From: Enterococcus haemoperoxidus ATCC BAA-382
Lineage (GTDB): Bacteria > Bacillota > Bacilli > Lactobacillales > Enterococcaceae
Length of the DNA stretch: 64,000 nucleotides
Direction: 5' to 3'
Assembly (NCBI RefSeq): GCF_000407165.1
Contig: NZ_KE136479.1
Location: 693,464-757,463 of the forward strand
Below the pieces are notes generated by a model that was given only the letters and a program-made list of their open reading frames with translations, made no database searches and was not told the DNA's origin. Shown here one piece after another: positions 9,403 through 25,588 of the stretch (position 1 is the stretch's first letter; every line of letters starts with the position of its first letter). The position numbers and the translations under genes were made by a program.

Positions 9403-12249
9403 GTGAATAAAAAAATAGTAATCAATCTTATTTTCTCGATTATATTATATGTAGTTGTATGGGGGAACCCTGTAGTTGTCAATGCTCAGAAAACCTTGAA
9501 TAGTAATATGTATGTGGCGTATTCAAAATCGAATGAAAACTATGTTTTAGATATATCTGCCTATACGGATAATTTGATTACTTATTCATATCACGGATTG
9601 GGCAACCAATTATTTTTGTTTAATTACAGATCCGAAAAAGATGGATATATTATCCAAGCTGCTGGGAATGAACAAAAGCTTTTGAAAGACAATTCTACGA
9701 AAAATATAGTTACTGCTGTTAAATTAGATAAAGCAGTTAATAGCCTAAGTGTTTTAGAAGATGAATTAATTTGGGATATAAAAAAAGTTTCTGGGAATTA
9801 TTATTCTATATCTAATAGAAAATCTGGTCTTTATATAACAATTAGTGATTTGGGGTCTAATGCTGATATATCTTTGAAACCATTCATAAATAATGTTTCA
9901 CAGTTATTTAAGATTGAGACGATGTTAGGCGTCTATACGATTAGAAATCGTTATGATACTGAACAGGTGTGGGATATTCAGGGAGGTGTTGGTGAAAATC
10001 GAGACATTATTCCTTATTCTTACGGCGGCTTAGGGAAGAAAAATCAAGAGTGGTTTGTACTATATAAACCTAATGATAATGACTATGTTTTATCAAATGC
10101 AGGAAACAAGCAATTGATTGTTTCCCAAAACAGTGCAAGCAGTGCAGCAACGACTGTCTTAAATACTTTAGCATTTACAGATAAGTATGATTTAAAAAAT
10201 CTATTACGTTTTTCAAAAGAGACTGCGATAAATGGTGATAATGTTGTGACAATAAGAAATGAGCAATATGGTTCATATTACACTCTTACTGATAGTGGAA
10301 CAATCAACTTGCAAAGCTATATATCAGCGGATCGTACTTCATCAGAGCAGTATAAACAACATTGGATTCTTGATAAAATCAAGGAGTTAGAAGTCCCTGT
10401 TATAGATAATATTAAAGTAACTGGTCCAATTTCAGGAGAAAGTTCTACATTCTTTGCAGGAGAAAAATTAGTTGTTGATGGAAGATATTCAGATTCAGAA
10501 TTTAAGTCATTTGATTTGTATGCTAAGTATGATGTGAATGTAGAAACATTGATTTATAAAAATATGCCTATAGCTAACGGAACGAAAATATTTTCAACAA
10601 GTTTTGACACTTCAAATTATAAGGATGGAAATCATTTTTTAGAATTTTCTGCAAGAGGCGATGGAATGTTTCAATCAAATAGAGTGGCTTTAAAATATAC
10701 TATTATATATCCAACTCCGATAGGTAAGCCGAACCCCCAAATAATAAAACAATACACGGATATTAATTCGTTAAAAGTTTCTGATTTTGTAACGGATTTA
10801 ACTGATGAAATTGGTAGTACTATTGAAATTTCTGAGTTGAATTTAGATACGAGCATTGAAGGAGACCAAATGGCTGTCGTTTCAATTAAAAATAAATATA
10901 AAACAGTGAAAATTGATGTTCCTGTAACAATTGTACCAGATCCAATTGTTATATCAGAATATTTTGAAAATCAAGCATGGTTGATTGGAGAAATAAACAA
11001 GCAGCTCTCTCCTAAAAAAATAGACAAAGATGTTTATATGACAGATTTATTGAAAATTACGTCAATCGTCAATCGATCCGGGGCGGATTTTAAAGGACAA
11101 CATATTCCAAAAACAATTGCGTCACTTAAAAATTTACAAGAGATAGATTTGAAGAATAAGTATCTAATTGGAATGTTACCAGATGAATTAGGTAGTTTAT
11201 CCAAGTTAAAAAAACTATCAATATTTGGTAATAGTTTCACTGGAGAGATTCCTAGATCGTTATCTAAACTAGAAAAACTTGAATTTTTAGCTTTTGATGA
11301 TAATAAACTGAGTGGAACGATTCCTCCTGGATTAGAGAATATAACTACATTAAGACAAATTTATTTAAATAAAAATAATTTGGTTGGAATAGTCCCAACA
11401 TTTAATTTAGGTCCATTTTATAATTTTCATATAGGAGAAATGCAGTTAACCTACAATGATAATAAAAGTCCAAGTTTTATTAGTAAAGTAGCACAATATC
11501 AACAATCATTTGTTGTGGGAACGAATAGCTTATCTTTGACTGGTAATACGAATTTAGTCATTGCAAATAAAGAAATGCTCATAAGACCATTTGATTTCGC
11601 TGATGAAGGTTTTCTTAACCTACATGCACAAAAAAAGGATAGGACAAATGTTGCGCTATATTCAGGACATACATTTAAGATCATGAATAAAAAAAGTGGT
11701 CAGGTACTCTATAATGGACCAGAAATTAAGAATCTAGAAATTAAAGTAAATCCTGCTGAAATTCATCAAGTTATAATGGACAATGCAGATAAAAACCCAA
11801 ATAATATTTTTGAGTTTAAACCCAATCTGCGTGAATATAAATTAAGCGAAGTGCCTAAAACAATGTCGCTAGATTTAAAAATAGGCGATCTGAATTACCA
11901 ACCAGTGAAAATTTCACGTGATGATAACTTAAGTATTTTTGATAATCGTGTAGACAATCAATGGCAATTAAAAGTTAAGGTTTATCCATTACAAAATAAA
12001 ACAAAAAGATTGGCTGGCGATTTTTTTTACAAAGGGTCTGATGCTATACCTAAAATTTTGACGGCTAGTAGCAATTTCCATGTAATCGAAAGTGGAAAGA
12101 GTAATCCGAATTCAGAAACAATCGATTTAGGAAAAGAATGGGATGAAAATAGAGGGTTATTTTATAAACAAGCAAGCACTGCCAATTATAAAGATTCCTA
12201 TACTGGAAAACTTGAGTGGCAAATGGTGGATGCGCCAAATGGAAGTTAA
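9403..12249 (+). CDS. LRR-WxL surface protein with ricin-type lectin N-terminus
   Basis: A 948-residue secreted protein, GTG start with GAAAGGA at 9386-9392. Signal peptide residues 1-28 (cleavage near VNA). Residues about 30-325 differ completely from the sister proteins: three or more repeats with Y-I-SN-SG-Y-, W-I-, and QEWFV / QHWIL (QxW motifs) indicate beta-trefoil folds of the ricin B lectin family, so it probably binds sugars. A beta-sandwich follows (about 330-520), then plant-type LRRs (about 567-666) and a WxL domain with QWQLKVK and LEWQMVDAP. The LRR and WxL parts are clearly homologous to those of 2235 and 5982. The gene stands apart (500-base gap in front), so it may have its own promoter. 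Confidence 0.88.
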   Translation: MNKKIVINLIFSIILYVVVWGNPVVVNAQKTLNSNMYVAYSKSNENYVLDISAYTDNLITYSYHGLGNQLFLFNYRSEKDGYIIQAAGNEQKLLKDNSTKNIVTAVKLDKAVNSLSVLEDELIWDIKKVSGNYYSISNRKSGLYITISDLGSNADISLKPFINNVSQLFKIETMLGVYTIRNRYDTEQVWDIQGGVGENRDIIPYSYGGLGKKNQEWFVLYKPNDNDYVLSNAGNKQLIVSQNSASSAATTVLNTLAFTDKYDLKNLLRFSKETAINGDNVVTIRNEQYGSYYTLTDSGTINLQSYISADRTSSEQYKQHWILDKIKELEVPVIDNIKVTGPISGESSTFFAGEKLVVDGRYSDSEFKSFDLYAKYDVNVETLIYKNMPIANGTKIFSTSFDTSNYKDGNHFLEFSARGDGMFQSNRVALKYTIIYPTPIGKPNPQIIKQYTDINSLKVSDFVTDLTDEIGSTIEISELNLDTSIEGDQMAVVSIKNKYKTVKIDVPVTIVPDPIVISEYFENQAWLIGEINKQLSPKKIDKDVYMTDLLKITSIVNRSGADFKGQHIPKTIASLKNLQEIDLKNKYLIGMLPDELGSLSKLKKLSIFGNSFTGEIPRSLSKLEKLEFLAFDDNKLSGTIPPGLENITTLRQIYLNKNNLVGIVPTFNLGPFYNFHIGEMQLTYNDNKSPSFISKVAQYQQSFVVGTNSLSLTGNTNLVIANKEMLIRPFDFADEGFLNLHAQKKDRTNVALYSGHTFKIMNKKSGQVLYNGPEIKNLEIKVNPAEIHQVIMDNADKNPNNIFEFKPNLREYKLSEVPKTMSLDLKIGDLNYQPVKISRDDNLSIFDNRVDNQWQLKVKVYPLQNKTKRLAGDFFYKGSDAIPKILTASSNFHVIESGKSNPNSETIDLGKEWDENRGLFYKQASTANYKDSYTGKLEWQMVDAPNGS

Positions 12250-12558: not shown

Positions 12559-13251
12559 ATGTATACGGTTGGATACTTGATAGAAAAAAAACAAGAAGTA
12601 AATGTTCATTTAAATTTTTTAACAGATAAAGGCTGGACTTTAGCAGAAATCAATATGAAAGAGCAAGTTGCACATCAAGAGAATTTAGATGCTATCATCA
12701 TCTTTGAAGATACAATGTCTGAAGCTTGCTTTTGGTTGATGAAACTAAAAAAACATGTGAAAGTACCTATTTATTTATTATCTGCAATCGATGAGTCTCG
12801 TTCAAACATTGTCTATCTGCAGTTAGGAGCGGAAGCTTGTTTTTCTATGAAGATGGAATCAGAAGAACTTTATTATACGCTAACTAATTTACTTAGCCAT
12901 TATTCAAATAAAAGTAGTTATCCATCAGCGAAGAAATCAACCTCACCTAAGCGAAAAGAACTTGAGCTAATGCCCAGAAACTTAAGTGTGCTAATTGACG
13001 GGGAAAAAGAGGTTTCTTTAACCAAAAAAGAATACAATGCACTAGAGCTATTATTAAATAGTCCAGGACAAACCATTTCGTATAGTGAGCTCAAAGAAAA
13101 ACTGTGGAACTCTGAAATGAATGTTGAGGATAAAAACTATCGAGTTGCCAATATTATGTTTCATTTGCGCAATAAAATAGAAATAAGCACAACGAATCCG
13201 AGGTTTATTAAAACAGTCCGTTCAAAAGGGTATATGTTGGATATAAAATAA
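12559..13251 (+). CDS. OmpR-type winged-helix regulator with degenerate receiver
   Basis: A 230-residue cytoplasmic DNA-binding protein; GGGAGG before ATG. Residues 1-115 follow the receiver fold (DAIII, PIYLLSA, LQLGAEACF match the usual D-IILD, PIIMLTA, LGADDYL), but the phospho-acceptor Asp is Phe49 and the conserved Lys of the T/K pair is replaced. Residues about 140-230 are a winged helix of PhoB/OmpR type (LTKKEYNALELL, YRVANIMFHLRNKIE, RFIKTVRSKGYML). It should bind DNA without aspartyl phosphorylation. Paralogues at 24529 and 50613 each go with a WxL cluster, so control of these clusters is inferred. No histidine kinase is on the same strand. Confidence 0.88.
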   Translation: MYTVGYLIEKKQEVNVHLNFLTDKGWTLAEINMKEQVAHQENLDAIIIFEDTMSEACFWLMKLKKHVKVPIYLLSAIDESRSNIVYLQLGAEACFSMKMESEELYYTLTNLLSHYSNKSSYPSAKKSTSPKRKELELMPRNLSVLIDGEKEVSLTKKEYNALELLLNSPGQTISYSELKEKLWNSEMNVEDKNYRVANIMFHLRNKIEISTTNPRFIKTVRSKGYMLDIK

Positions 13252-13279: not shown

Positions 13280-13321
13280 GACAAACACTCATGAGGGCGA
13301 TAGCCCTCAAGGGTGTTTGTC
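13280..13321. terminator. Bidirectional terminator
   Basis: GACAAACAC pairs with GTGTTTGTC, with an inner stem TGAGGGC / GCCCTCA. It lies between the convergent regulator (ends 13251) and sensor gene (ends 13337 on the minus strand), so it can serve both. Confidence 0.8.
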
Positions 13322-13336
13322 CCACACCCTTGTCTT

Positions 13337-14653
13337 TTATGGTTCTGAAACTAAAGATGCATACTTTAGTGGAAGAGTAAGTATAATCAAGCACTTTTTA
13401 TGATTAAAGTAAAAAGCAAAAGAAGCTTTTCTGTAATTTTTTAGCATCATTGGTACGGCAGCTATCCCAAATGTTTTTAAATTTTTTTTATCCGTAATCA
13501 AGTAATCGGGCTGTTTAATTTCCGAGTATTGTTGTTTAGGAAGATTACTTAGCTCAATAAAAATAGAGTGTGGCTTTTTTTCAAAAGTTAAATAGATTTG
13601 CTTCTTTGACTCAGTGTTTTGTTGCTTTATTATGAAATCAAGAAGAGTGGATAAACTTCTAATGGAATCAATCAAACTAATCGAAATATCAGCATCGTAA
13701 ATCTTTTGAGGAATAGAAATTCTCAAATGAATTCCGTTTTTTTCACAGCTCTCAATAAACTGTAAAAGCAACCCTTGGATTGGAGGAATCATCAATCGCT
13801 TTAATTGATCATAACTATCCTCATCTAATAAATTCTTTGAATAATCTGTTACTGATAAAATAAAAGCGGAAGCCTCCTCCATTCGATACTCTTCAATATA
13901 GCCCACCAAACTCACCAAAATACTACGATAATCATGTCTAAATTCATCAGCCAAAGTAATTTTATCTAAATCATTATTGTACTGCTGAGACAAAACCAAT
14001 TTTCGTAACTGTTCTTGATAATATCGACTATATAAATAAACAGTAAAATGAAATACACTATTCAATCCGAGTAAAATCACTGTTAAGTATAAAAATGAGC
14101 TATAAGAGATGCTATAAACCGCAAATTGACGTAAAAAATATAAAAAAATCAAAAGAAAAGTAAGGAATAACACTGTCATTTTATAATTTTTTTGGACGTG
14201 CGCAATAGAATCGAAAAGCTGTAATTTTTGATCAAGCCATCTAACAAATAAAATGAGCACAAATAATAGGAGTTGTTGTGTACTCAATAAAAAAGGAACA
14301 AGCTGTTGGAGTAATTCAGGAGAAATCTTTCCAATCCTTGATAAGTAAACAGGTAAATCGTAGGTAAATAACCAAGATGTAATGATCAAAGAACTTTGTA
14401 AATAAAGAAACAAGGCCATCAATAACCAACTGTTTAAATGTCGAACGATGAAAATTGGCTGAAAAACAATAAAAAGAAATAAAAATAGTCCGATAAAAGG
14501 TGTATTAAACAGAAAAATAAACAGAATATGAAAAATAAGAAGCGACGAAAGGACAATGGTCTGACGCAGAGTAGTATATTTTTTATTTCCTAAAAACCAA
14601 ATAAGCTGGAGATAGTTCAATGTTAGTAAACTAGCAAAAAAAGGAAAAGTCAT
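13337..14653 (-). CDS. AgrC-like sensor protein keeping the histidine but lacking ATPase motifs
   Basis: A 438-residue protein with about six transmembrane helices in residues 1-210 and a cytoplasmic region like AgrC/FsrC kinases. The phospho-acceptor motif is present (EFRHDYRSIL, His240). The ATP-binding half is decayed: the N-box reads LLDFIIKQ (Phe340 where the Mg-binding Asn belongs) and the G-box reads NLKTFGIAAV (391-400) in place of GxGxGL. It can therefore probably receive a phosphate but not make ATP-dependent phosphorylation itself. The start overlaps the stop of the gene before it by ATGA, and AAAGGAGG precedes it. Same length and colinear with the 14650 protein, so the two arose by tandem duplication. 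Confidence 0.88.
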   Translation of the reverse strand: MTFPFFASLLTLNYLQLIWFLGNKKYTTLRQTIVLSSLLIFHILFIFLFNTPFIGLFLFLFIVFQPIFIVRHLNSWLLMALFLYLQSSLIITSWLFTYDLPVYLSRIGKISPELLQQLVPFLLSTQQLLLFVLILFVRWLDQKLQLFDSIAHVQKNYKMTVLFLTFLLIFLYFLRQFAVYSISYSSFLYLTVILLGLNSVFHFTVYLYSRYYQEQLRKLVLSQQYNNDLDKITLADEFRHDYRSILVSLVGYIEEYRMEEASAFILSVTDYSKNLLDEDSYDQLKRLMIPPIQGLLLQFIESCEKNGIHLRISIPQKIYDADISISLIDSIRSLSTLLDFIIKQQNTESKKQIYLTFEKKPHSIFIELSNLPKQQYSEIKQPDYLITDKKNLKTFGIAAVPMMLKNYRKASFAFYFNHKKCLIILTLPLKYASLVSEP

Positions 14654-15963
14654 AGATGCCTCCTTTCATGGACAGCTTTCAATAATGTGAAATTAGCAAT
14701 AAATTGGTTTTCTTTCTGTGTGATCGTATAATCACATTCTGGGTATTGATCTAAAATGGTCATAAAAATATGCAATCCTTTTCCTTGATGTCCTATTTTT
14801 GTAGAAAAATTATTTTGTAGCAATGTCTGAAATGAAACTTTTTTTTCTTCATTGTAGGTGTTACGAACCTCTACGGTAAGAAAGTCCTTTGTTCCTTCAA
14901 TTGTGATGCTGATGAAGGAATGATTGGTCTGTTCAGTGGCTTCATATGCATTATTCAATAAAATCGATAAACATCGAATAAAATCTACAATATTCATTTT
15001 TACATTCGTTAAATTATCAGTTACGTTTAAACGGATATCAATATTAGCTGTTAGGCATTTCGTCAAAAAACTAGTTAATAATCCTCTAACAGCTGGATTA
15101 CTGATACTGGAAATTTTTTTATATAAGTTAGGAGTCAGTAAAGGGTCTGAATAATCAATGATGCCATTAAGTAAGGAGATGGCTTTTTCCTTATCTTTTT
15201 GTTCTAAGTAGCTATTTAAACTAAGTAATAAGGTTTGATACTCTTGGCGAAACTCTTCAGAAAGAGTAACCTTATTTTTTTCTTGTTTATAAGCTTCTGA
15301 GAGTAATTCAATATATTTTTTTTCATCGTTATACTTGATAGCAAGTAATAAATTAAACGTTATGATTATGGTAGAGCCAATCACAATGCCAGAACTGTAT
15401 AAAACAGAAATAGGATCTCCTTGAAGAACACTAAATTGCTTGAGACCACTAAGTAAAAGTAAGAGCAGCAGCATTAGAATAGATAGCAACTTATACTTTT
15501 TCGGCAGTAATGAAATTGAATTTGATAGTGAAAAACGTTTATTTAAGTAACTGACTAATAGAATCAAAAAGAACAAGAGGAGTTGTTGTAAAAGAATAAA
15601 CAAGTATAAGTATTTAGAATACGTTAAATCAGTAATTATCTGATTTATATGTAAAATATCCCATGTGTCTAAGGTCGGAATCCATGACAAAAGTATCAAA
15701 GAATTTTCAATACTGATCAATAATGATGGGATAAACCAGTTGTTTAATTTCCTCGCAACGAAAATGAATTGTAAGGCAAGAAATAATAACTGAGAAAAAG
15801 CAATATAGGATCCGGTGATAAACATTCCTGATATAAACTGAATAACAACAAATCCACTCAAAATAAAGGTTTCACGTAATGAAAGTAGTTTTTTATAAGT
15901 GATCAGCCAAATCATTTGTAAAAAATTTACCGCTATTATGGAAGTGACGAAAGACTTATCCAT
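14650..15963 (-). CDS. AgrC-like sensor protein keeping the ATPase but with Gln for His
   Basis: A 437-residue protein with about six transmembrane helices (residues 1-210) and a GHKL ATPase domain. N-box LLNNAYEAT (Asn338) and G-box GHQGKGLHIF (391-400) look functional. The phospho-acceptor motif reads EFRQEYQTLL, with Gln240 exactly where the sister protein has His240. It cannot carry the phosphate itself; the simple reading is that it phosphorylates the sister protein in a heterodimer. It follows the response regulator after 12 bases and overlaps the sister gene by 4, so all three should be made together. GGGGGG stands before ATG. The input signal is unknown; no AgrD-like peptide gene was recognised next to it. 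Confidence 0.88.
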   Translation of the reverse strand: MDKSFVTSIIAVNFLQMIWLITYKKLLSLRETFILSGFVVIQFISGMFITGSYIAFSQLLFLALQFIFVARKLNNWFIPSLLISIENSLILLSWIPTLDTWDILHINQIITDLTYSKYLYLFILLQQLLLFFLILLVSYLNKRFSLSNSISLLPKKYKLLSILMLLLLLLLSGLKQFSVLQGDPISVLYSSGIVIGSTIIITFNLLLAIKYNDEKKYIELLSEAYKQEKNKVTLSEEFRQEYQTLLLSLNSYLEQKDKEKAISLLNGIIDYSDPLLTPNLYKKISSISNPAVRGLLTSFLTKCLTANIDIRLNVTDNLTNVKMNIVDFIRCLSILLNNAYEATEQTNHSFISITIEGTKDFLTVEVRNTYNEEKKVSFQTLLQNNFSTKIGHQGKGLHIFMTILDQYPECDYTITQKENQFIANFTLLKAVHERRHL

Positions 15964-15975
15964 ACTAAAGCCCCC

Positions 15976-16731
15976 CTATAATACTTTTTTCAATTTATCA
16001 ATAATTTTGATGCCCACCAATAGCTCATCCCCGCTAGAGAAGATAATCATCCCTTTGGCTCTGTCAAGAACAGTAATTGAGGTTAAATTAATGATGTAAG
16101 ACTGCAATGATGTAAATAGATAAGGCTGATGCTCCACTAGTTTTTTTATTTTGCCGATTTGCCCATTAATGATGATATCTTCATGAAATGTTTTAATTAA
16201 AATTTTTCCACGCAATCCTTTCATTGATTCTATGTATAGAATATCTTTACCATTAACGTAGATTTTTTTAGCGCCTGTTTTTATCATAACGATGTTTGGA
16301 TCTTCTCTCCAACTATTATTTAAATTGTCTTCAATTTTATCTAATAGTTCGTAGAGCGGTTGACTTAATTTTATGGAAGAAACAGTATTTTTTATCAGGT
16401 AGCCTATCGGTAAAATATTGCTATTGATGATAGGAATCGCTTGATCTTCTAAACTTGTTAAAAAAATAATCGAACAGTTTCGATTGTGCTTACGTACTTC
16501 TAAAGCTAAATCAATTCCTGTAAAAGTTGTTTTTAAATCAATATCAAAAATAAAAATATCTGTATCCGCAATAGAAAGCGATTGAAGCTCCTCCATAAAG
16601 AATAAATGGTTATCAATCGAAGAAACATTGAATTGAACAAAATTTGAATGATAATTTTTTAAAGAAAGAATAATTTTCTTCCTATATTCATAGTCATCTT
16701 CTACTACGTAAACCGTTGATCTAAATGCCAT
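15976..16731 (-). CDS. LytTR-family response regulator
   Basis: A 251-residue regulator. Residues 1-130 form a receiver with acidic pocket VVEDDYE, acceptor Asp63 (IFIFDIDL), Thr/Ser (FLTSLED) and Lys (YLIKN) all present, so it should be phosphorylated. Residues about 150-251 are a LytTR DNA-binding domain (YIESMKG, ILIKT, the ITVLDRAKG stretch), as in AgrA, FsrA and ComE. First gene of a minus-strand operon with the two incomplete sensors; AAAGGAG precedes the ATG. The promoter must lie in the 300-base gap shared with the divergent WxL cluster B, which makes that cluster a likely target. Confidence 0.9.
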   Translation of the reverse strand: MAFRSTVYVVEDDYEYRKKIILSLKNYHSNFVQFNVSSIDNHLFFMEELQSLSIADTDIFIFDIDLKTTFTGIDLALEVRKHNRNCSIIFLTSLEDQAIPIINSNILPIGYLIKNTVSSIKLSQPLYELLDKIEDNLNNSWREDPNIVMIKTGAKKIYVNGKDILYIESMKGLRGKILIKTFHEDIIINGQIGKIKKLVEHQPYLFTSLQSYIINLTSITVLDRAKGMIIFSSGDELLVGIKIIDKLKKVL

Positions 16732-16830
16732 TGACGACTCCTTTCCTGTATTACGAAAAAATTAAAAATTCAAGTAAATTATTTTAGTATATTTTAGATT
16801 AATTTTACAAGAAAAGGAAGTAATTGTTAA

Positions 16831-16900
16831 ATAAAAGTTATAAAAGTGCTCGGAAGGAACGAAAAAACGCTTTCAAAATGTTTTGTGAGATAAAAGTTAT
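16831..16900. promoter_or_regulatory. Pair of 11-bp direct repeats between divergent operons
   Basis: ATAAAAGTTAT occurs at 16831-16841 and again at 16890-16900, both in the gap between the LytTR operon and cluster B. LytTR proteins bind pairs of short direct repeats, so this is a candidate site, though the spacing (59 bases start to start) is wider than usual. The rest of the gap 16732-17030 is AT-rich with no gene. Confidence 0.35.
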
Positions 16901-17030
16901 CTGTATTATTGAAAGTGTACTACAGCAATAACTCTGATACAAAAAATAACTAAGAACATTTTTTCGTAAAAGAGTGATGTACGAAGGATTAAATAATTAT
17001 CATGCAAAGAATGAATGAAGGAGTGATTCT

Positions 17031-18041
17031 ATGAGAAAGTTTCGATTACTTGTTTTGTTTACAGTGATTCTTTATTTTGCTTTTATTCCGTTTATCGGGA
17101 ATGCAGAAGAAGCACACAGTGGGAATAGAGCAAGTAGTCAAGCCAGTATCAAATTTGTCCATGACAACACACCTAAAACATTAAGAGATTCACCTAAAGA
17201 ACAAAGTGATATCTGGGGAGATTTAGGCTATGGACAAAGAAAAAGATTACCGAACACGGGTGAAATGATGAAAATTTTCGGGACAACTCTTGGTTTTCTA
17301 TTCATCACGTTGTTCACCATTATTGTAACTTACTACTATATATCAGGGGGAAGAAAAATGAAATTATGGAAATCAATCCTTTTATCTGCAGTTGTGTTAG
17401 GAGCTGTTTCGACACCAAGTACTACATTTGCCAATGAGTCAGAAGGAGACGGGAAAGGAAATGCTAAGTCCGTAGGCTCAGTTACGTTAGAACCAGGGGA
17501 TGAGAATGAAAAACCAGTGGATCCAGAAAATCCTGGTGGAGAAGAAGGAGGAGAAACTGGGAATCCAGGGAATTTAGCCATTTCTTTTGTTTCACCGTTA
17601 GATTTTGGTACGGTGAAATTGACTGGACAAGATCAAGTTGTTTCAGCAACCAATGAAGCGCCTAATCTACAAGTGAGGGATTCTCGGGGGACTGCTAAGG
17701 GATGGACTGTTCAAGTCGCTATTTCAAACTTTATGAAAGTTAAAGAAGATGGCAAATTAGATGATAAGGCAATTATCAGAGGCGCTTCATTATATCTACC
17801 AAAAGGAACAGTCAAATCGGCTAATGGTGGCACAGGGACTAATGCGCCGGTAGCCAGAGAATTAAGTGTTAATAATAAACCACAAACAGTATTTGAAGCA
17901 CCTGATAAAACAGGAGCAGGTAACTGGATGAATAGCTTTGGTAAAGAAGCTGTCAGTCTAACCATTCCACAAGATGTATTGATTGGCGATTATAAAGCAG
18001 AACTAACATGGACAATGTCTGATACACCAGGTAAAAAATAA
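17031..18041 (+). CDS. Small LPXTG anchor protein fused in frame to a WxL protein
   Basis: A 336-residue reading. Residues 1-109 are a complete small LPXTG protein: signal peptide 1-25, short linker, LPNTGE near residue 75, a membrane helix and a short SGGRK tail. Residue 110 is the ATG (17358) of a normal WxL protein with its own signal peptide (LWKSILLSAVVLGAV), Pro/Glu-rich linker, GWTVQVAI and LTWTMSDTP. In cluster C the same two genes are separate and overlap by ATGA (55893/55890). Here a run of five G at 17346-17350 precedes AAGAAAAATGA; with four G the first frame would stop at that TGA. So this is probably two genes joined by a one-base slip. GAAGGAG stands before 17031 and GGGGG before 17358. 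Confidence 0.8.
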   Translation: MRKFRLLVLFTVILYFAFIPFIGNAEEAHSGNRASSQASIKFVHDNTPKTLRDSPKEQSDIWGDLGYGQRKRLPNTGEMMKIFGTTLGFLFITLFTIIVTYYYISGGRKMKLWKSILLSAVVLGAVSTPSTTFANESEGDGKGNAKSVGSVTLEPGDENEKPVDPENPGGEEGGETGNPGNLAISFVSPLDFGTVKLTGQDQVVSATNEAPNLQVRDSRGTAKGWTVQVAISNFMKVKEDGKLDDKAIIRGASLYLPKGTVKSANGGTGTNAPVARELSVNNKPQTVFEAPDKTGAGNWMNSFGKEAVSLTIPQDVLIGDYKAELTWTMSDTPGKK

Positions 18042-18059
18042 AAGGAGTGAATAGATAGA

Positions 18060-18737
18060 ATGAAAAAGACAATTTTATTAAGCAGTACTTTACTATTAAC
18101 GGCACTATTATCGGCTGGAGTAAAAGAAGCAGAAGCTGAAACAACAGAGCCTTTCAACACGAAGGCAACCTTTAATTTTGGAACAGAAGATCCAGAAAAT
18201 ACAGATCCTAACGATCCAGTTGACAAGGATAAACCAGTTGGTCCAGAAACTGGACAAAAAGGGTTGCTGACGATTGACGCTGTGTCAGATTTTAACTTCA
18301 AATCAGCAAAAATTACTGGTGGTGAGACAAAAACTACGGCAGAAGTTCCTGACGGGAAAACAGTAGGAATTCAAGTGACCGATAAACGAGGAACTGGCGC
18401 TGGCTGGAATGTTCAAGCTAAAGTGGATGAATTTAAAGATACAAAAGAAGCAACAAAAATCTTAAAAGGCGCAACAATTAAAGTGCCAGCAGGAACGTTT
18501 AAAACAACAGTAAATGGTGATACAACCAACCCGCCGAAAGCCGCCAATGCAGAAGGAACATTGATTGGAAAATCAGCAACACCAATCTTACGTGCAGAAA
18601 AAGACCAAGGGAAAGGATCATGGGTCAACGATTGGGCTGATCAAGTTGAATTAACGATTCCAGGTGGAAACTTACTTGGAAATTATCAAGCGACTGTGAC
18701 ATGGACATTAATCAATACACCAACTGGTAATAACTAA
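18060..18737 (+). CDS. WxL-domain surface protein
   Basis: A 225-residue secreted protein: signal peptide about 1-27 (cleavage after EAEA), a linker rich in Pro, Asp and Glu (about 40-65), and a WxL domain with LLTIDAVSDFNF, GWNVQAKV and VTWTLINTP at the end. AAAGGAG precedes the ATG. It lies 18 bases after the LPXTG/WxL reading and 25 before the next WxL gene, in a run of four WxL domains in cluster B. Expected on the cell surface, bound to peptidoglycan. Confidence 0.92.
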   Translation: MKKTILLSSTLLLTALLSAGVKEAEAETTEPFNTKATFNFGTEDPENTDPNDPVDKDKPVGPETGQKGLLTIDAVSDFNFKSAKITGGETKTTAEVPDGKTVGIQVTDKRGTGAGWNVQAKVDEFKDTKEATKILKGATIKVPAGTFKTTVNGDTTNPPKAANAEGTLIGKSATPILRAEKDQGKGSWVNDWADQVELTIPGGNLLGNYQATVTWTLINTPTGNN

Positions 18738-18762
18738 ATTTAGTTAGGTGAAGGAGAGCAAG

Positions 18763-19437
18763 ATGAAAAAAACAACTATACTAATGGGATTAACTTTAAC
18801 TGCAACCTTATTGGTAACAGGACATGATACTTATGCAGAGACACCAACAGAAAAGACGACAATGGCAGAGATTGAAGTTTTAAAATCTGGTGGAATTGAG
18901 CCAGGTAAACCAGAAGAACCAGAAGAACCGATAGGACCTGGAATTGGAACGGGAGATTTTACAATCAATGCTGTTTCCGATTTTAAATTTGGGCAAATCA
19001 AAATGGGGCAAACTGGGAAAGCACAAGTAGAAGCCGATAAAAAGTTAGGGATTGAAGTAATCGATGAACGAGGAACAGGTTCAGGCTGGAATGTTCAAGT
19101 TTCTATGACAAACTTTTCATCCACAATTAATGGAAATCAGGATACGATTGTTAAAGGCTGGGGCTTGTTTATTCCAAAGGGAGAGGTCTCAAGTAAACAA
19201 GGGGATATGCAAAATCCTCCAACATCAAGAAGCGTAGTGATTAACTCTGCAAGCGTAAATGAAACGATTTTGACAGCTGATAAGGATAAAGGGATGGGAA
19301 GATATACAAGTATTTTTATGGATGATAAGACAACTGATCTTGATAAATCTATTCGTTTAGTGATTCCATCTTATGCTAAAGTCGGTCAATACAAGGCTGA
19401 GTTAACATGGTCGCTGATCAATGGACCTGTAAAATAA
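18763..19437 (+). CDS. WxL-domain surface protein
   Basis: A 224-residue secreted protein. ATG 18763 is preferred to GTG 18748 because the AAGGAG site (18751-18756) lies between them and a textbook signal peptide (KKTTILMGLTLTATLLVTG) starts at 18763. WxL domain with GWNVQVSM and LTWSLINGP. The protein most like it in the window is the partial one at 2-409 (shared GIEV-D, GKGMGRYT), which places both at the same point of paralogous clusters A and B. Confidence 0.92.
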   Translation: MKKTTILMGLTLTATLLVTGHDTYAETPTEKTTMAEIEVLKSGGIEPGKPEEPEEPIGPGIGTGDFTINAVSDFKFGQIKMGQTGKAQVEADKKLGIEVIDERGTGSGWNVQVSMTNFSSTINGNQDTIVKGWGLFIPKGEVSSKQGDMQNPPTSRSVVINSASVNETILTADKDKGMGRYTSIFMDDKTTDLDKSIRLVIPSYAKVGQYKAELTWSLINGPVK

Positions 19438-19461
19438 ATGATGGAAAAAGGGAGAGACATT

Positions 19462-20142
19462 ATGAAAAAGAACATCACACTACTTGCTAGTTTAACTATG
19501 GCGATTTATGTTGGAAGCAATTTTAGTACAGAAGCGCATGCAGAAAAGTCAGATGCAAATTCAGTCGTGAACATTCAAATGCTAGTTGGGGACGAGAATG
19601 AAGAACGCCCTCCTGTGGGACCGACAGATCCAGGAGACGAGGGAAATGATGGAACAGGAAATAAAGGACTTTTAACAATCGACCGTGTACCTAACTTGAA
19701 ATTTGGTGAAGTCAATATTAGCGGGTCAGACCAAGTAGAATCAGCCATCAATGAGACCCCTTATGTTCAAGTAACAGACGTTAGAGGTACTTCTGCGGGC
19801 TGGGCATTATATGTGAAGGCTGATGAATTTTCTAGTGATAAGCAAGAGAAGCTAAAAGGTGCAACGCTAGCATTGAAAAATAGTAGCGTTAGTTCATCAA
19901 GTTCGGGTAAAGCGATCACTCCACCAAAAGGAAGTGACCTTGTACTCTCACCAAAAGCACAAAAGATTATGACCGCTGCCAAAGGTTCAGGTGAAGGAAC
20001 TTGGTTGCAAGCCTGGAATAAAAACGGTTCTGACGAAAAAAATACGAATGTTCAACTATCTATCCTAGCGGGTACTGCTAAAGCAAATACAGAATATAAA
20101 ACAACTATCTACTGGGAGTTACAAGATACCCCTGGTAAATAA
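19462..20142 (+). CDS. WxL-domain surface protein
   Basis: A 226-residue secreted protein. ATG 19462 is chosen because AAAGGGAG lies at 19447-19454; the upstream in-frame ATG at 19438 has no ribosome site. Signal peptide to about residue 27 (EAHA), proline-rich linker (about 45-65), WxL domain with LLTIDRVPNLKFG, GWALYVKA and IYWELQDTP. Paralogue of the 462 protein of cluster A. It is the last of the small WxL genes of cluster B and is followed by a hairpin at 20181-20228. Confidence 0.92.
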   Translation: MKKNITLLASLTMAIYVGSNFSTEAHAEKSDANSVVNIQMLVGDENEERPPVGPTDPGDEGNDGTGNKGLLTIDRVPNLKFGEVNISGSDQVESAINETPYVQVTDVRGTSAGWALYVKADEFSSDKQEKLKGATLALKNSSVSSSSSGKAITPPKGSDLVLSPKAQKIMTAAKGSGEGTWLQAWNKNGSDEKNTNVQLSILAGTAKANTEYKTTIYWELQDTPGK

Positions 20143-20180
20143 TCACAAGTAATGAGAGCAAGACAAAACCAATTGCATAC

Positions 20181-20228
20181 CAAGAAAATAGGAAATTGTT
20201 TTGATAAAATCCAATTCTTATTTTCTTG
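20181..20228 (+). terminator. Imperfect stem-loop after the small WxL genes
   Basis: CAAGAAAATAGGAAATTG pairs, with two mismatches, with CCAATTCTTATTTTCTTG across a 12-base loop. No good T-run follows, so it may be a weak terminator or an mRNA-stability hairpin that lowers expression of the following DUF916 and LRR-WxL genes. Confidence 0.45.
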
Positions 20229-20355
20229 TGTCTAATGCAAGAAACACTAATAAGTCCATTTATTTCCCCATAGACGTAAAACATCTGTTTTAAAAAGTTG
20301 GGAGACTGAAAGGTTTAAGTTGTCCCAATCTCATTATTATAGGAGGAAATAAACG

Positions 20356-21471
20356 ATGAAAAACGTCAAAAAAAATCTATATAATTTACTGTTCATTCTT
20401 TTATTTTTAATCTGTCCAATTCAATCACAAGCGGCAGATATGGAATATTCTGTTAGCGCAGATATTCCTGAAAATCAAGTGGATAAATCACAAACCTATT
20501 TTGATCTCAGAATGAAACCCGAACAAAAACAAGAGTTAACATTAAAAGTTTCTAACTCAGGAGACAAAGAAATTACGTTGAATATCATTCCGAATAGTGC
20601 GACAACCAATCAAAATGGTGTGGTTGATTTTAGTGAAAAGGACAGAAAAATCGATTCAAGCTTATCCTGTCCAATCACAAAATTGATTTCAGGAGAACAG
20701 AAGGTTAAATTAGCTCCAAAAGAGAAAAAAGCAGTGAAATTTACATTGCAAATGCCTAAAGAAGAGATAGATGGAAAAATTGTTGGCGGCTTTTATGTAT
20801 ACAAAGACGAAGCCAATGATGAGCAGAAAAGTTCAGAAGGCGGCGTTCAAATTAGTAATAAATATGCGATGGTAGTGGGTATTCAACTAACGGAGAAGGA
20901 CGATCCAGTAAAAGCAGAACTAAACTTAAATGCCATTCAACCAGATCTGATTAACTATAGAACAGCAGTCACCGCAAATATTCAAAATACTAAACCGACA
21001 TTTGTTAATGATTTAAAAGTTGTGGCAAAAGTAAGCAAAAAAGACTCAGTAGAAATCATCCATCAAACAACTAAAGAAGAGATGGCAATGGCACCTAATT
21101 CCAATTTCGATTTTCCAATTAGCTGGGATAATCAAGAACTACTTCCAGGAAAATATACATTGGATTTAGTTGCAACCACAAAAGAGGACGAGTGGGCCTT
21201 TAAAAAAGAGTTTGAAATCACATCTAAAGAAGCTAAAAAACTTACGGATGAAGCGATTGAAATTGAGAAAGAACCAAATTATTGGGCGATAGGCGGTATT
21301 ATCGCTGCAAGTATTTTAGTCGTTGTGGGGATCATTATTCTAGTAGTATTACTGTATAAGAAAAGAAAGAAAAAACTCGAATTAGAAAGAAAACGTCAAG
21401 CAAAAAAGCGCAAACAGCAACGAAAAAAACGTACTGAAAAAGACAAACAAAAAGATAGATACAAACAATAA
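20356..21471 (+). CDS. DUF916 and DUF3324 domain protein (WxL-interacting protein)
   Basis: A 371-residue membrane-anchored protein: signal peptide about 1-27, DUF916 about 32-155, DUF3324 about 165-295, one membrane helix about 308-332 and a long, strongly basic cytoplasmic tail of about 38 residues (Lys/Arg runs with KRKQQRKKR). The tail is much longer than in the 1178 protein. AGGAGG precedes the ATG. Expected partner of the WxL proteins of cluster B. It is followed after 20 bases by the LRR-WxL gene, as in cluster A. Confidence 0.93.
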   Translation: MKNVKKNLYNLLFILLFLICPIQSQAADMEYSVSADIPENQVDKSQTYFDLRMKPEQKQELTLKVSNSGDKEITLNIIPNSATTNQNGVVDFSEKDRKIDSSLSCPITKLISGEQKVKLAPKEKKAVKFTLQMPKEEIDGKIVGGFYVYKDEANDEQKSSEGGVQISNKYAMVVGIQLTEKDDPVKAELNLNAIQPDLINYRTAVTANIQNTKPTFVNDLKVVAKVSKKDSVEIIHQTTKEEMAMAPNSNFDFPISWDNQELLPGKYTLDLVATTKEDEWAFKKEFEITSKEAKKLTDEAIEIEKEPNYWAIGGIIAASILVVVGIIILVVLLYKKRKKKLELERKRQAKKRKQQRKKRTEKDKQKDRYKQ

Positions 21472-21491
21472 CGAAAGAAAGGAGGAAAATA

Positions 21492-24314
21492 ATGAGTAAA
21501 AAAAGGAAATTACTGCCGATTATTATTTTTTGTTTCTCCTTTGCAAGTCTCATTTTATTTGATGTTCAACAAGTTGTAGCGGATGATCCTTTGGATTATT
21601 ATACAGAGATAGATAATAAAGGAGGTATATATGGGTCTATTTTTCATCCAGATAAACCCATGATACGTCCGGAATATCAAGGAGCTACATGGGAAGATAT
21701 TTTAAAGGACGTTACTGACGAATCTGGTACCCCACTATTTAAAGGATTTGGGGAATCGAATAAAAAAAATTACAAAGTTGGTGATGTGGTTTATTATAAC
21801 AATGTTGGCATTTACAATAAACGGAAACTTTCGTTAAAGATCAACTACATTACAGGCGGTAATGGAGGGACAGCAGATTGGAAGTATATAGTTTATCTGA
21901 ATGAGGATGGATCTTTGAGTCAGAAATCAGCAGGGATTAAGGAAGATGTGGAAGGGCTGATGTCTTATCAGCTTGTTTATACAGATGATAAGCAAGTTGT
22001 AAAGGATGTATATTTAGAGTTTCCTCAGGTTATTTATATTAAACAAGGGGGAGATCGATCGCCTTCGTTTAATACAATCAGCAAAAACGGTTTAAAAAAA
22101 GTTTATCTGAATTTAATAGCTGGAGGCTATACAGGAACCAAGTTAGATTTCTTTGTCGGAGAGAATAAAAAAGATGAAATGTTGAGCATGTCGTTATCAA
22201 CACTTTATAATGAGAGAGTGCCTCAAAATTATGTTATTGTATCTGATAATAATGAAGCGATTACGATTGGCGCATACAGTGCATTTAGTTATAGTCCGAA
22301 ATTCAATATATTTTCAAGTTCGATTGAAGCACCAGGTACACCAAGCTATTCTCCGCCAGCAGTAAGAGGTCAGTCAGTTAAAAAAGGACTAGCACCAGAG
22401 TACAATATAACCCAAAGTTTAGGCTCTGCTTATGAAAAGTACTACCCAGAAAAATTATCGATTATTTTAGAAGATAAGGAAGCGATTTTTCCTACTGCTG
22501 AATTACCAAGTATTCAAGTTTTCAATCGTAATGGAGAATCAATCACAAGCAAAGTAAAGGTTCAAAGGCTTACGACAAGAAAAGTAGTTGTGGAGTTGCC
22601 AGATATATTATTAAAGGAACTTAAAAGTAACTCTGTTACGATTAAGGTGAAATATAATGACTTAAACCTTTTGAAAATTATGAAGTATTATGATTCATCT
22701 AGTGATACATTCAATATTCCACTGTCTGCATCTAACATCAGAAAAACTGGGACAGAAGAAGTATCGTCTGATACTGAAACGGGCAGCTCAAAACTGATAC
22801 CCACTATTTCAGCAACTCCAGTTGAGCAAACTGTGTGGATCAATAGTTCAACAAATGATTTAGACCCGACGCAACTTCTGAAAAATATAGAAAGTTCACT
22901 TCCAAATGATAGAGTAAATATCGTTGGATTCACAGAAGAAAAAGTATTTAATACAGTAAAAAAAGACTCTGTTCAGATAAAACTTCAAAGTCAACAGTTG
23001 AGCCAAATAACTAAAGTAGTAGAAGTTCCGATAAATGTCATCGATGAAGTAGTCACTACTGATTTTTTTGAAAATCAACCATGGATTATTAATAATATTA
23101 ATAGTCAACTCAGTCCAAAAAAAATTGGAAAAGATGTCTATTTGTCTGATTTAGATAAAATCAAACAAATCAACACGGATACAACCAGACCATTTCCAGA
23201 GCAGCATATTCCAAAAAATATTAAATATTTTCAAAATCTGGAACTCTTGTATCTAAGAAATACCAAGATGATTGGAACTCTTCCAGAAGAATTAGGGCAA
23301 TTAAGAAAAATGAAAGATCTAAGAATCTTTGATAATTCTTTGACGGGAGAAATTCCTAAACAGTTGGGAAATTTAAAAGATTTAGGCTATCTTATTTTGG
23401 ATAGAAATGGTTTGACCGGGACTGTGCCAAAAGAACTAGTCGACTTACCAAAACTCCATACCCTATATTTAGAGAAAAATAAGTTAGTTGGACAATTACC
23501 GGATTTTAGAGATAATTTCAAGATTTTAATAGTAAGTGAGAACCAAATTACACACAATTCAAGCACGGTGCCAAGCTTTTTAAAAACGGCGATTAAAAAT
23601 GATTACGCTCAAACTTTTATTGGTGAGATGAAGTTAATAGGGAAAGATAAACTAGCCGAAATTAGCCCAGATACTACTGAGATTAAACCTTTTGATCCAG
23701 TTGATTCAGGTTATTTTTCACTAATGACAAGTACGCAACAATTACATGCTGAGCATGAATTTACAATCATTGACGAAGAGACTGATGAGATTCTGTATGA
23801 AGGGAAAGCCGATGAAAGGGTTGAGATTCCCTATAAAAAAGGAATAATCTATAAAGTCATCATGGATCATGCGGATAAAAATCCAAAAAATCAGTGGCTT
23901 GTTAAAACAAAAATACCTGAACTGAAATTAGAGAGTGTACCTTCATCAATGGCATTTTCCATTCCATTGGGAAGAGAGTTGACAAAGCCAGTACAATTAA
24001 CAGGAAATGTTTCTGTATTCGATAATAGAGACAAAGGCAATTGGCAGTTAAGTATGACACCAAGTGCTCTAAATTCAGATGCTAAAACGCTTAAGGGAAC
24101 ATATAGTTATATTGATTCTAAAGGTGAGCATTCCATCGTTACAGGACAAAAAGTAATCATTGAAAAAGGACAAAGTGACACTGAAAATGAAGTAATCCCA
24201 ATTTCTAATAAATGGACAGATCAAAAAGGTCTGCAGTTTACCTTAAACGGATCAAATTACCTTGGGAAATATCAAGGAAGTGTGACCTGGACTTTAGAAG
24301 ATGTCCCAAATTGA
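21492..24314 (+). CDS. Leucine-rich repeat WxL surface protein
   Basis: A 940-residue secreted protein. Signal peptide about 1-32 (LLPIIIFCFSFASLILF, cleavage near VVA). N-terminal unknown region distantly like those of 2235 and 5982 (shared VGIYNKRKLSLKIN type motif), then a beta-rich middle, LRRs of the LxGxIP type at about 571-676, and a WxL domain with NWQLSMT and VTWTLEDVP. AAAGGAGG precedes the ATG. It is more diverged than the three cluster A copies are from each other, so those probably expanded after the A/B split. Last structural gene of cluster B. Confidence 0.9.
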   Translation: MSKKRKLLPIIIFCFSFASLILFDVQQVVADDPLDYYTEIDNKGGIYGSIFHPDKPMIRPEYQGATWEDILKDVTDESGTPLFKGFGESNKKNYKVGDVVYYNNVGIYNKRKLSLKINYITGGNGGTADWKYIVYLNEDGSLSQKSAGIKEDVEGLMSYQLVYTDDKQVVKDVYLEFPQVIYIKQGGDRSPSFNTISKNGLKKVYLNLIAGGYTGTKLDFFVGENKKDEMLSMSLSTLYNERVPQNYVIVSDNNEAITIGAYSAFSYSPKFNIFSSSIEAPGTPSYSPPAVRGQSVKKGLAPEYNITQSLGSAYEKYYPEKLSIILEDKEAIFPTAELPSIQVFNRNGESITSKVKVQRLTTRKVVVELPDILLKELKSNSVTIKVKYNDLNLLKIMKYYDSSSDTFNIPLSASNIRKTGTEEVSSDTETGSSKLIPTISATPVEQTVWINSSTNDLDPTQLLKNIESSLPNDRVNIVGFTEEKVFNTVKKDSVQIKLQSQQLSQITKVVEVPINVIDEVVTTDFFENQPWIINNINSQLSPKKIGKDVYLSDLDKIKQINTDTTRPFPEQHIPKNIKYFQNLELLYLRNTKMIGTLPEELGQLRKMKDLRIFDNSLTGEIPKQLGNLKDLGYLILDRNGLTGTVPKELVDLPKLHTLYLEKNKLVGQLPDFRDNFKILIVSENQITHNSSTVPSFLKTAIKNDYAQTFIGEMKLIGKDKLAEISPDTTEIKPFDPVDSGYFSLMTSTQQLHAEHEFTIIDEETDEILYEGKADERVEIPYKKGIIYKVIMDHADKNPKNQWLVKTKIPELKLESVPSSMAFSIPLGRELTKPVQLTGNVSVFDNRDKGNWQLSMTPSALNSDAKTLKGTYSYIDSKGEHSIVTGQKVIIEKGQSDTENEVIPISNKWTDQKGLQFTLNGSNYLGKYQGSVTWTLEDVPN

Positions 24315-24528: not shown

Positions 24529-25230
24529 ATGTATACAATCGGTTTTTTTGCTTTAGAAACGACGAAAAAATCTGCCCATGTTGAGTTTTTGACAGAAAAA
24601 GGTTGGGACATTGTTTCTCTAACAGAAGATCAATTTTCTATAGATGTTAATAAGTTTGACGCACTGGTGATTCAAGAAGAAGCTATGCCTGTTACTTGTC
24701 GTTGGTTAATGGAAATTACTCGTCAAGTAAGTGAACTACCGATTTATTTATTATCTACGAATGGAGGTAAATATTCTAATATTGTTTATCTACAGCTTGG
24801 AGTAGATGCCTGTTTTCCATTTGAGATAGACCAGGAAGAATTTTTTTATACACTAACAAATTTGTTGATGAGTTGTGACAAAACTAGGAAATTTGTGGAT
24901 GAAGGACATACTACTATGTACTCATTGAAATCAGCAGGCTTAGAACTGGTAGCAAGTAATTTAAGTGTTGTAATCGATGGAGAAGAAGAAATCATTTTGA
25001 CTAGAAAAGAATTTCAAGCAATGGAACTTCTATACAATAATCCCTGTCGTGCAATACCTTACGAAGAGTTTAAAGAAAAGATGTGGAACCCAGAGCAAAA
25101 TGAACCAGAAAAAAATTATCGCATTGCCAATGTTGTGTTTCATTTAAGAAATAAAATAGAACAAAACCCAATGAACCCAAGGTTTATTAAAACAGTTCGT
25201 TCAAAAGGGTATATGTTGGATATAAAATAA
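24529..25230 (+). CDS. OmpR-type winged-helix regulator with degenerate receiver
   Basis: A 233-residue paralogue of the 12559 protein; the last 30 residues (RFIKTVRSKGYMLDIK) are identical in part. N-terminal receiver-like domain (1-115; FDALVIQEE, LPIYLLST, LQLGVDACF) with Gln49 in place of the phospho-acceptor Asp. C-terminal winged helix (about 145-233) with LTRKEFQAMELL and YRIANVVFHLRNKIE. GGAGG precedes the ATG. It ends cluster B just as 12559 ends cluster A, which supports cluster duplication including the regulator. DNA targets are not visible; the clusters themselves are the likely ones. Confidence 0.88.
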   Translation: MYTIGFFALETTKKSAHVEFLTEKGWDIVSLTEDQFSIDVNKFDALVIQEEAMPVTCRWLMEITRQVSELPIYLLSTNGGKYSNIVYLQLGVDACFPFEIDQEEFFYTLTNLLMSCDKTRKFVDEGHTTMYSLKSAGLELVASNLSVVIDGEEEIILTRKEFQAMELLYNNPCRAIPYEEFKEKMWNPEQNEPEKNYRIANVVFHLRNKIEQNPMNPRFIKTVRSKGYMLDIK

Positions 25231-25318: not shown

Positions 25319-25588
25319 ATGGCTAAAAAATCAAAAATCGCCAAAGCAAAACAGCAACAAGCCTTGATTGAAAAATACGCTGAACGACGTACCGAGTTAA
25401 AAGCAAATAAGGATTACGAAGCTTTAGCAAAATTACCAAAAGATTCCAATCCAAATCGCTTGAAAAACCGTGATTTGATCGATGGACGACCAAGAGCCTA
25501 TATGCGTAAATTCGGCATGTCACGAATTAATTTTAGAACGTTAGCACATCAAGGACAAATTCCAGGTGTACACAAAGCAAGCTGGTAA
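25319..25588 (+). CDS. rpsN: Alternative 30S ribosomal protein S14 (zinc-free form)
   Basis: An 89-residue basic protein that matches S14 over its whole length ([13 protein letters not shown] start, [35 protein letters not shown] end). It lacks the CxxC-CxxC zinc ribbon of the 61-residue S14 form and is therefore the long zinc-independent type. Such genes are induced when zinc is short and replace the zinc-binding protein in the ribosome, freeing zinc. GAAAGGGTG stands before the ATG, and the candidate Zur box at 25280-25300 fits this role. It is followed by a small basic gene at 25623. Confidence 0.95.

Follow-up and report, generated by a model that had tools for sequence, protein, structure and literature searches.

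In the window (the whole 64 kb stretch of DNA analysed), an AgrC-class kinase is probably divided between two full-length paralogous membrane sensors, here termed Q and H, such that Q would phosphorylate H and H would feed a LytTR response regulator, an arrangement that would have arisen in two steps. Q is proposed to supply the ATPase, and H the phospho-accepting His together with the helix that faces the regulator; within a Q:H dimer, Q would then phosphorylate His240 of H, which would hand the phosphate on to Asp63 of the regulator, a residue that we take from the receiver family to be the site of phosphorylation, and the regulator at the end of this phosphorylated pathway would act on a divergent WxL surface operon. 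As for its origin, the ancestor of H would have lost its ATPase before the 17 regulator-Q-H triples found in this genus diverged, at a time when the partner still carried its His, and Q would have lost that His later, in a clade of seven triples that includes the window and in an eighth triple outside that clade, the loss of His and the close packing of the genes leaving a mutually dependent pair.

Complementary motifs in Q and H

The three genes follow one another on the minus strand, with the LytTR regulator upstream, then Q and then H (Table 1). The earlier note on this DNA, made from the sequence alone, had described Q and H as paralogues of near-equal length whose motifs line up, and this was borne out by BLASTP, which aligned them at 30% identity (117 of 392 columns, E 5e-44). 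Reading the codons confirmed His in H and Gln in Q at residue 240, which is aligned in both proteins, as well as the four-base overlap between the two genes. The contrast seen by that note in the ATPase motifs held up too: Q carries the N-box LLNNAYEA (N338) and the G-box GHQGKGLHI (G394, G396), H reads LLDFIIKQ and NLKTFGIAAV there, with F340 where the Asn would stand, and the Pfam HATPase_c_5 model scored 49.3 bits in Q against 20.9 bits in H, with a cut-off of 22. Neither window protein combines the His, the N-box and the G-box that would be expected together in a single AgrC/FsrC-class kinase.

Table 1. Features of the triple and of its divergent neighbourhood, in window positions.
Feature	Position	Strand	Remark
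H protein: AgrC-like membrane sensor, 438 aa	13337..14653	-	H-box intact, ATPase degenerate
Phe340 codon, H protein, at N-box Asn position	13634..13636	-	17 H-type: Tyr 10, Phe 7
His240 codon, H protein	13934..13936	-	invariant in 17/17 H-type
Q stop / H start overlap, 4 bases (ATGA)	14650..14653	-	same overlap in locus L061
Q protein: AgrC-like membrane sensor, 437 aa	14650..15963	-	ATPase motifs intact, Gln240 replaces His
G-box codons Gly394-Lys395-Gly396, Q protein	14776..14784	-	both Gly in 17/17 Q-type
N-box Asn338 codon, Q protein	14950..14952	-	Asn in 17/17 Q-type
Gln240 codon, Q protein	15244..15246	-	17 Q-type: His 9, Gln 5, Lys 2, Asp 1
LytTR response regulator, 251 aa, first gene of triple	15976..16731	-	Pfam
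Divergent intergenic region, regulator to WxL genes	16732..17030	.	cre-like box (our label) + GTAnTA-N8-GTAnTA block
Divergent WxL / WxL-interacting-protein / LRR surface-protein genes, likely target	17031..24314	+	Pfam WxL on 4, WxLIP on 1, LRR on 1

Judged from sequence and predicted fold, both proteins are AgrC-class membrane sensors. Among solved structures Q is closest to 6e52, the kinase module of S. aureus AgrC (E 5.2e-13), a profile of the H-type proteins matched the same structure (E 1.6e-14), and AgrC was the top Foldseek match for the single-chain fold models of both H and Q, models that are modest in confidence (pLDDT 70 and 65). The window's regulator matched Pfam LytTR (3.4e-7) and, at 28.3 bits and thus below the cut-off of 30.2, Response_reg (2.1e-6), and its residues D12, D63, T92 and K114 are invariant in the regulators of all 17 triples.

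To place the pair among its relatives, we searched 22 genomes of the genus, with matches in 16 for the H query and in 19 for the Q query, and gathered 60 sensors of at least 380 amino acids from 40 stretches and the window, excluding shorter fragments (in L083, L088 and L091) and weaker genus matches. These 60 comprise 17 Q, 17 H, 10 single sensors (those adjoining a similar regulator) and 16 AgrC/FsrC-like sensors that are more distant; the count of 17 Q follows the reassignment by hand of two proteins first scored as Q, namely L086 (single) and L089:9370 (distant). Adding an outgroup of 21 sensors, taken from 20 stretches selected in genomes beyond the genus, gave 64 comparison sensors that are not H (17 Q, 10 single, 16 distant and 21 outgroup). 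Ten more sensors (L101-L110), seven of them at the same places as outgroup rows, were kept outside these 64, and all ten carry the His, the N-box Asn and both G-box Gly.

The same pair, which the earlier note had proposed to seek in other genomes, recurs in 17 triples across 9 of the 22 genomes, with three triples each in the window's genome (G000), G009, G004 and G011 and one each in G019, G001, G014, G018 and G003. A Q and a regulator adjoin every H found (17/17), and the regulator is homologous throughout. At the family level, H was matched in 18 of 105 genomes at E 1e-20, with scores above 120 bits in this genus only; at the order level, with up to four candidates scored per genome, the H profile was matched in 94 of 395 genomes at E 1e-15, and matches above 400 bits again fell in this genus only.

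Across these sets the two proteins have lost opposite motifs. The N-box Asn is present in 0/17 H versus 64/64 other sensors, as is Gly394, such that the ATPase motifs are kept by all 17 Q and by the 47 further relatives compared, and with the N-box Asn so distributed the complementary pattern is more than chance. His240, by comparison, is found in 17/17 H, 9/17 Q, 10/10 single, 16/16 distant and 20/21 outgroup sensors, its loss from Q affecting eight triples. By motif, ATPase and phospho-accepting His appear to be split between two proteins in the window and in seven other triples, and H has a degenerate ATPase, as do pseudokinase modulators of the RocA/DivL type. The ATPase of H is degenerate at key positions yet not erased, and since Asn368 (17/17), Lys389 (16/17) and Gly396 (12/17) are largely retained, H may still bind some nucleotide.

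The main rival reading, which we consider unlikely, is that H, in the manner of RocA or DivL, acts on Q as an allosteric pseudokinase while its own His goes unused, with Q signalling alone or by another route. Such a role would suit a protein whose ATPase is degenerate while its fold is kept, and there are precedents in DivL and ChrS (PMC9491836, available excerpt) and in RocA, in which the H246A variant is indistinguishable from its parent (PMC7028121, available excerpt); it fits best the nine triples with a His-bearing Q and a seemingly separate transcription of H. An unused His should drift, however, and the H-box block D236-Y242 shows no variation across the H proteins (17/17), while the Q of the eight His-less triples has no His for phosphorylation. 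These objections weigh against the modulator reading for the window type and less strongly for the His-kept type.

The motif HDxxN occurs in 15/17 H, 10/10 single and 16/16 distant sensors and in 0/9 His-bearing Q, all of which have HDxxQ. This distribution, together with split-kinase theory that places phosphatase activity on one free subunit (PMC3591291, in the text available), would favour a role for H mainly as a phosphatase or phosphate-sink subunit that strips the regulator, with Q as the kinase (acting as a homodimer in those triples whose Q retains His). We find this quite improbable: the window's H and its ortholog are the two of 17 that have HDYRS instead, just four of the 21 intact outgroup sensors have Asn at that position, so that the motif is not general in this class, and the His-less Q would be left unexplained.

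Divergence, selection and gene spacing

In our trees H (n=17) formed one clade (100/100) and Q (n=17) another (100/99), with H grouping with seven single sensors and Q with two other single sensors (root not inferred). Because both of the single sensors nearest the Q clade carry His, the Q ancestor most likely carried it as well. The His-less Q form one clade of seven from four genomes plus the divergent L081, for which the tree needs two changes; a single clade was not rejected (AU p 0.186 for Q, 0.35 for H), and we retain one event and two events equally as options. Since the loss of the ATPase is common to all 17 H while that of the His in Q is partial, the most likely order is H ATPase first and the partner's His second. 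Pairwise distances over the 17 loci correlated at 0.96 (H-Q), 0.95 (H-regulator) and 0.99 (Q-regulator), none of these being reached in 2,000 permutations (0/2000), and the triple therefore diverges as a unit.

Conservation is crossed between the two proteins. Relative to the 16 distant sensors, identity over the first DHp helix (236-256) was 48.4% for H, 37.0% for Q with His and 33.3% for Q without, versus 15.9%, 25.0% and 24.4% over the ATPase domain, and the membrane parts were equal (13.8 to 14.7%). The 10 single sensors gave the same direction; seven of these ten are the H sister group, and the comparison was repeated with neutral references. Against the three single sensors outside that sister group, values were 61.5 for H and 54.3/48.0 for Q with/without His in the helix, and 23.1 and 35.8/35.9 in the ATPase domain. 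With the 21 outgroup sensors as reference, the first helix was near-equal between H (44.7%) and His-bearing Q (43.5%), and the crossed contrast persisted in the ATPase domain and, in the helix, relative to Q lacking His.

Selection was evaluated in 11 comparisons of related triples, in which some dN/dS values were not computable. Values for H ranged from 0.07-0.27 in the DHp part and from 0.22-0.45 in the ATPase domain, as against 0.04-0.13 in the ATPase domain of Q, and on these ratios H is constrained over its whole length, most weakly in the dead ATPase domain, which argues against pseudogenes. In most of the 11 comparisons dN/dS was higher in the ATPase domain of H than in its two other parts, which could suggest decaying duplicates without joint function, a reading that we find scarcely credible given 17 open pairs in nine genomes that diverge in parallel, dN/dS well below 1 wherever computed and an invariant H-box. 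Relatives whose ATPase protein keeps its His, which the earlier note had held would point to recent decay, do occur (9 of 17 triples); these nine nonetheless represent an older paralogue class, and recent decay was rejected on the grounds of an ATPase loss common to 17/17 H, a supported clade of seven His-less Q plus L081 and purifying selection on H.

The two classes of triple also differ in layout. Measured from longest-frame starts, with later starts likely in some H of both classes, the gap between Q and H ranges from 132 to 212 bases in the nine His-kept triples and from -44 to 89 bases in the eight His-lost ones; the choice of start shifts single values and not the separation of the classes, a difference that reflects few independent events. 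In all nine His-kept gaps, RNAfold revealed a hairpin with a T-run, at energies between -13.7 and -28.9 kcal/mol that only 0 or 1 of 60 mononucleotide shuffles equalled; the stems vary in sequence between subgroups, and a promoter-like TTGnnn-(17-19)-TATGAT block follows the hairpin each time. In the eight His-lost gaps, which are shorter and therefore have less room for a hairpin, the same script found a best hairpin of -6.2 (none at all in two gaps) and no TTGnnn/TATGAT block. A general consensus scan listed the hairpin of L067 and missed its promoter-like block (8/12 matches, below the limit), and in L082 it listed the promoter-like site and missed the hairpin, the RNAfold script finding both elements in both loci; in consensus scans of L067, L082 and the window, promoter-like sites were rarer than in shuffles, and terminator-like sites exceeded shuffles in L067 only (6 vs 1.2).

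H thus looks to be separately transcribed in the nine His-kept triples, where it would not be needed for a phosphorylatable kinase, as these 9/17 partners keep their His. Our reading is that the transcription of H was independent while Q could work alone and became tied to Q once it could not, a change of spacing that may also have altered the dosage of the two proteins. The obligate heterodimer claimed by the earlier note can accordingly be argued for the eight His-less triples, the window included, and does not extend to the other nine, in which H is apparently transcribed on its own. Its broader claim, that the LytTR regulator is served by a kinase made of two proteins, is supported, fitting the complementary loss, the 17/17 co-occurrence, the parallel divergence and the purifying selection.

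WxL neighbourhood and search for AgrB

We assessed neighbourhoods in stretches of 8.5 to 18 kb, and over 64 kb in the window. WxL or WxLIP homologues lie around 17/17 triples (L081: WxLIP only), near 6/10 single-sensor loci and near 0/12 distant-sensor loci. The probable target of the LytTR regulator is the divergent WxL surface operon. Seven aligned regulator-WxL regions have in common the GTAnTA-N8-GTAnTA block and a box that we presume to be cre-like. We also looked in the 17 regulator-WxL gaps, with a crude script, for direct repeats of the LytTR type that recur every 20-24 bases. Thirteen gaps had none and the other four (L061, L065, L069 and L078) had AT-rich matches, and for this reason we claim no operator.

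The window's genome holds all three kinds of sensor locus: two His-lost triples (the window and L081), a His-kept triple (L082) and four single sensors (L084-L087), with each of its pairs beside a WxL-type surface cluster. We tentatively propose, with confidence a little short of even, that these represent a series from single sensor to separately transcribed pair with a dead ATPase to close-packed pair with reciprocal loss, the last of which may provide switch-like control of the surface.

The earlier note had further called the sensor quorum-type. The AgrB family had no match in the window's genome or in G011, and the one match in each of the other seven of nine pair-bearing genomes lies away from every triple; without AgrB in the window's genome or near the triples of the other eight pair-bearing genomes, the term is unsupported and we do not retain it. 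In the five genomes in which the neighbours of the AgrB match were examined, it lies within 400 bases from a distant AgrC/FsrC-like sensor in G004, G014 and G003, about 0.9 kb from such a sensor in G001, and about 1.3 kb from a weak sensor match in G019.

Relation to known kinases

AgrC subunits are reportedly able to phosphorylate each other (Cisar et al. 2009). The comparison with AgrC that the earlier note had suggested places the His and G-box of H and Q at the same positions as in S. aureus AgrC (PDB 6e52, 6e95, 4bxi), their closest solved relative, with 6e52 the best for both. AgrC is a dimer with key residues His239, Gly394 and Gly396 (PMC6755735, available excerpt). Within the agr system it is a single protein sufficient in itself, whereas here two proteins complement each other in a genome that has no AgrB match.

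CheA3 and CheA4 of Rhodobacter sphaeroides make one kinase from two proteins, as is proposed for Q and H; neither CheA protein autophosphorylates alone, and CheA3 doubles as a phosphatase. In that system, however, whole domains are absent (P1 from CheA4, P3/P4 from CheA3), as described in the available part of PMC3591291, whereas H and Q are AgrC-class membrane sensors of equal length that have lost opposite motifs, with sensor parts in both and an intermediate state in relatives. Hik36 and Hik43 of Synechocystis similarly divide the HPt and catalytic parts between them and act with one regulator, but they are a split CheA homologue with genes far apart (PMC7656254, excerpt), and H and Q are paralogous sensors in one cluster. 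RocA of group A Streptococcus and a laboratory-evolved ChrS variant resemble H in setting a dead or truncated ATPase beside an active kinase (PMC7028121 and PMC9491836, excerpts). The His of RocA and ChrS is dispensable, unlike that of H, which is invariant while the partner's own is lost in 8/17; RocA interacts with CovS (PMC7028121, same excerpt), and heterodimers were not seen for the truncated ChrS variant, as far as the excerpt of PMC9491836 extends.

Searches of an open-licence PMC library, outside whose scope most subscription papers lie, turned up no description of a Q/H-type pair. Split kinases (CheA3/CheA4, Hik36/Hik43) and kinase-dead partners (RocA, ChrS, DivL) were already known; what the present pair appears to add is that its members are AgrC-class receptors of full length, that the motifs they lost are opposite ones, and that the order of events is preserved. 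Were H also a phosphatase, split-kinase theory would predict possible ultrasensitivity (PMC3591291, available part), and that prediction of switch-like responses is testable in the same genus or strain. Both an earlier and a later stage seem to survive among relatives, such that the evolution of an obligate heterodimeric receptor may be tested in one genus and even in one strain. The split kinases described so far, among those we found, are CheA-type with whole domains on separate proteins, and here the same state was apparently reached by opposite losses of active-site motifs in two full-length membrane receptors.

Sequence box and genes around the surface-protein cluster

Aligning seven regulator-WxL regions, we found a conserved box, AACGCTTnC, which we take to be cre-like and which in the window lies in the divergent gap (16732-17030) between the LytTR regulator gene and the WxL surface-protein genes, and this box hints that the surface genes may be regulated by sugar. 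The surface-protein genes are flanked on both sides by Trans_reg_C regulators, neither of which gave a Pfam match to a receiver domain. The terminator-like hairpin downstream of the first of these two regulator genes (12559-13251) faces the point where the H gene (the sensor with His kept and degenerate ATPase motifs) ends, and it comes from a scan in which 1.7 such sites are expected by chance in the region.

Features of the window and of one locus outside the genus
Feature	Location	Strand	Remarks
948-aa protein, ricin-type lectin domain and leucine-rich repeats	window 9403-12249		adjoins WxL genes
Trans_reg_C regulator	window 12559-13251		Pfam; related to second regulator
Terminator-like hairpin, 9 pairs	window 13308-13332	+	terminator-like site scan
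Trans_reg_C regulator	window 24529-25230		Pfam; related to first regulator
Ribosomal protein S14 gene	window 25319-25588		immediately past surface-protein genes
AgrC-like sensor, Arg at His position	L151:7651-8928 (G246)		outside genus; ATPase motifs intact

Possible exchange, duplication and decay among sensors

Between two H genes (L062:6815-8104 and L066:7888-9177), identity is 81% for the ATPase domain but 58% for the membrane part, a pattern that resembles a swap of the 3' part between paralogues. Elsewhere, three AgrC/FsrC-like sensors stand in tandem next to a single regulator (L089:6511-10677, genome G016), each with the phospho-accepting His, N-box and G-box; they are duplicates without motif loss. 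The window's own genome also carries, on contig 2, a family sensor remnant split into short frames (L083:7473-8006).

His loss outside the genus

In L151 the genes run regulator-sensor, regulator-sensor in tandem, with the Arg-bearing sensor first and the second intact. The first sensor represents a separate loss of the His in an AgrC-like sensor.
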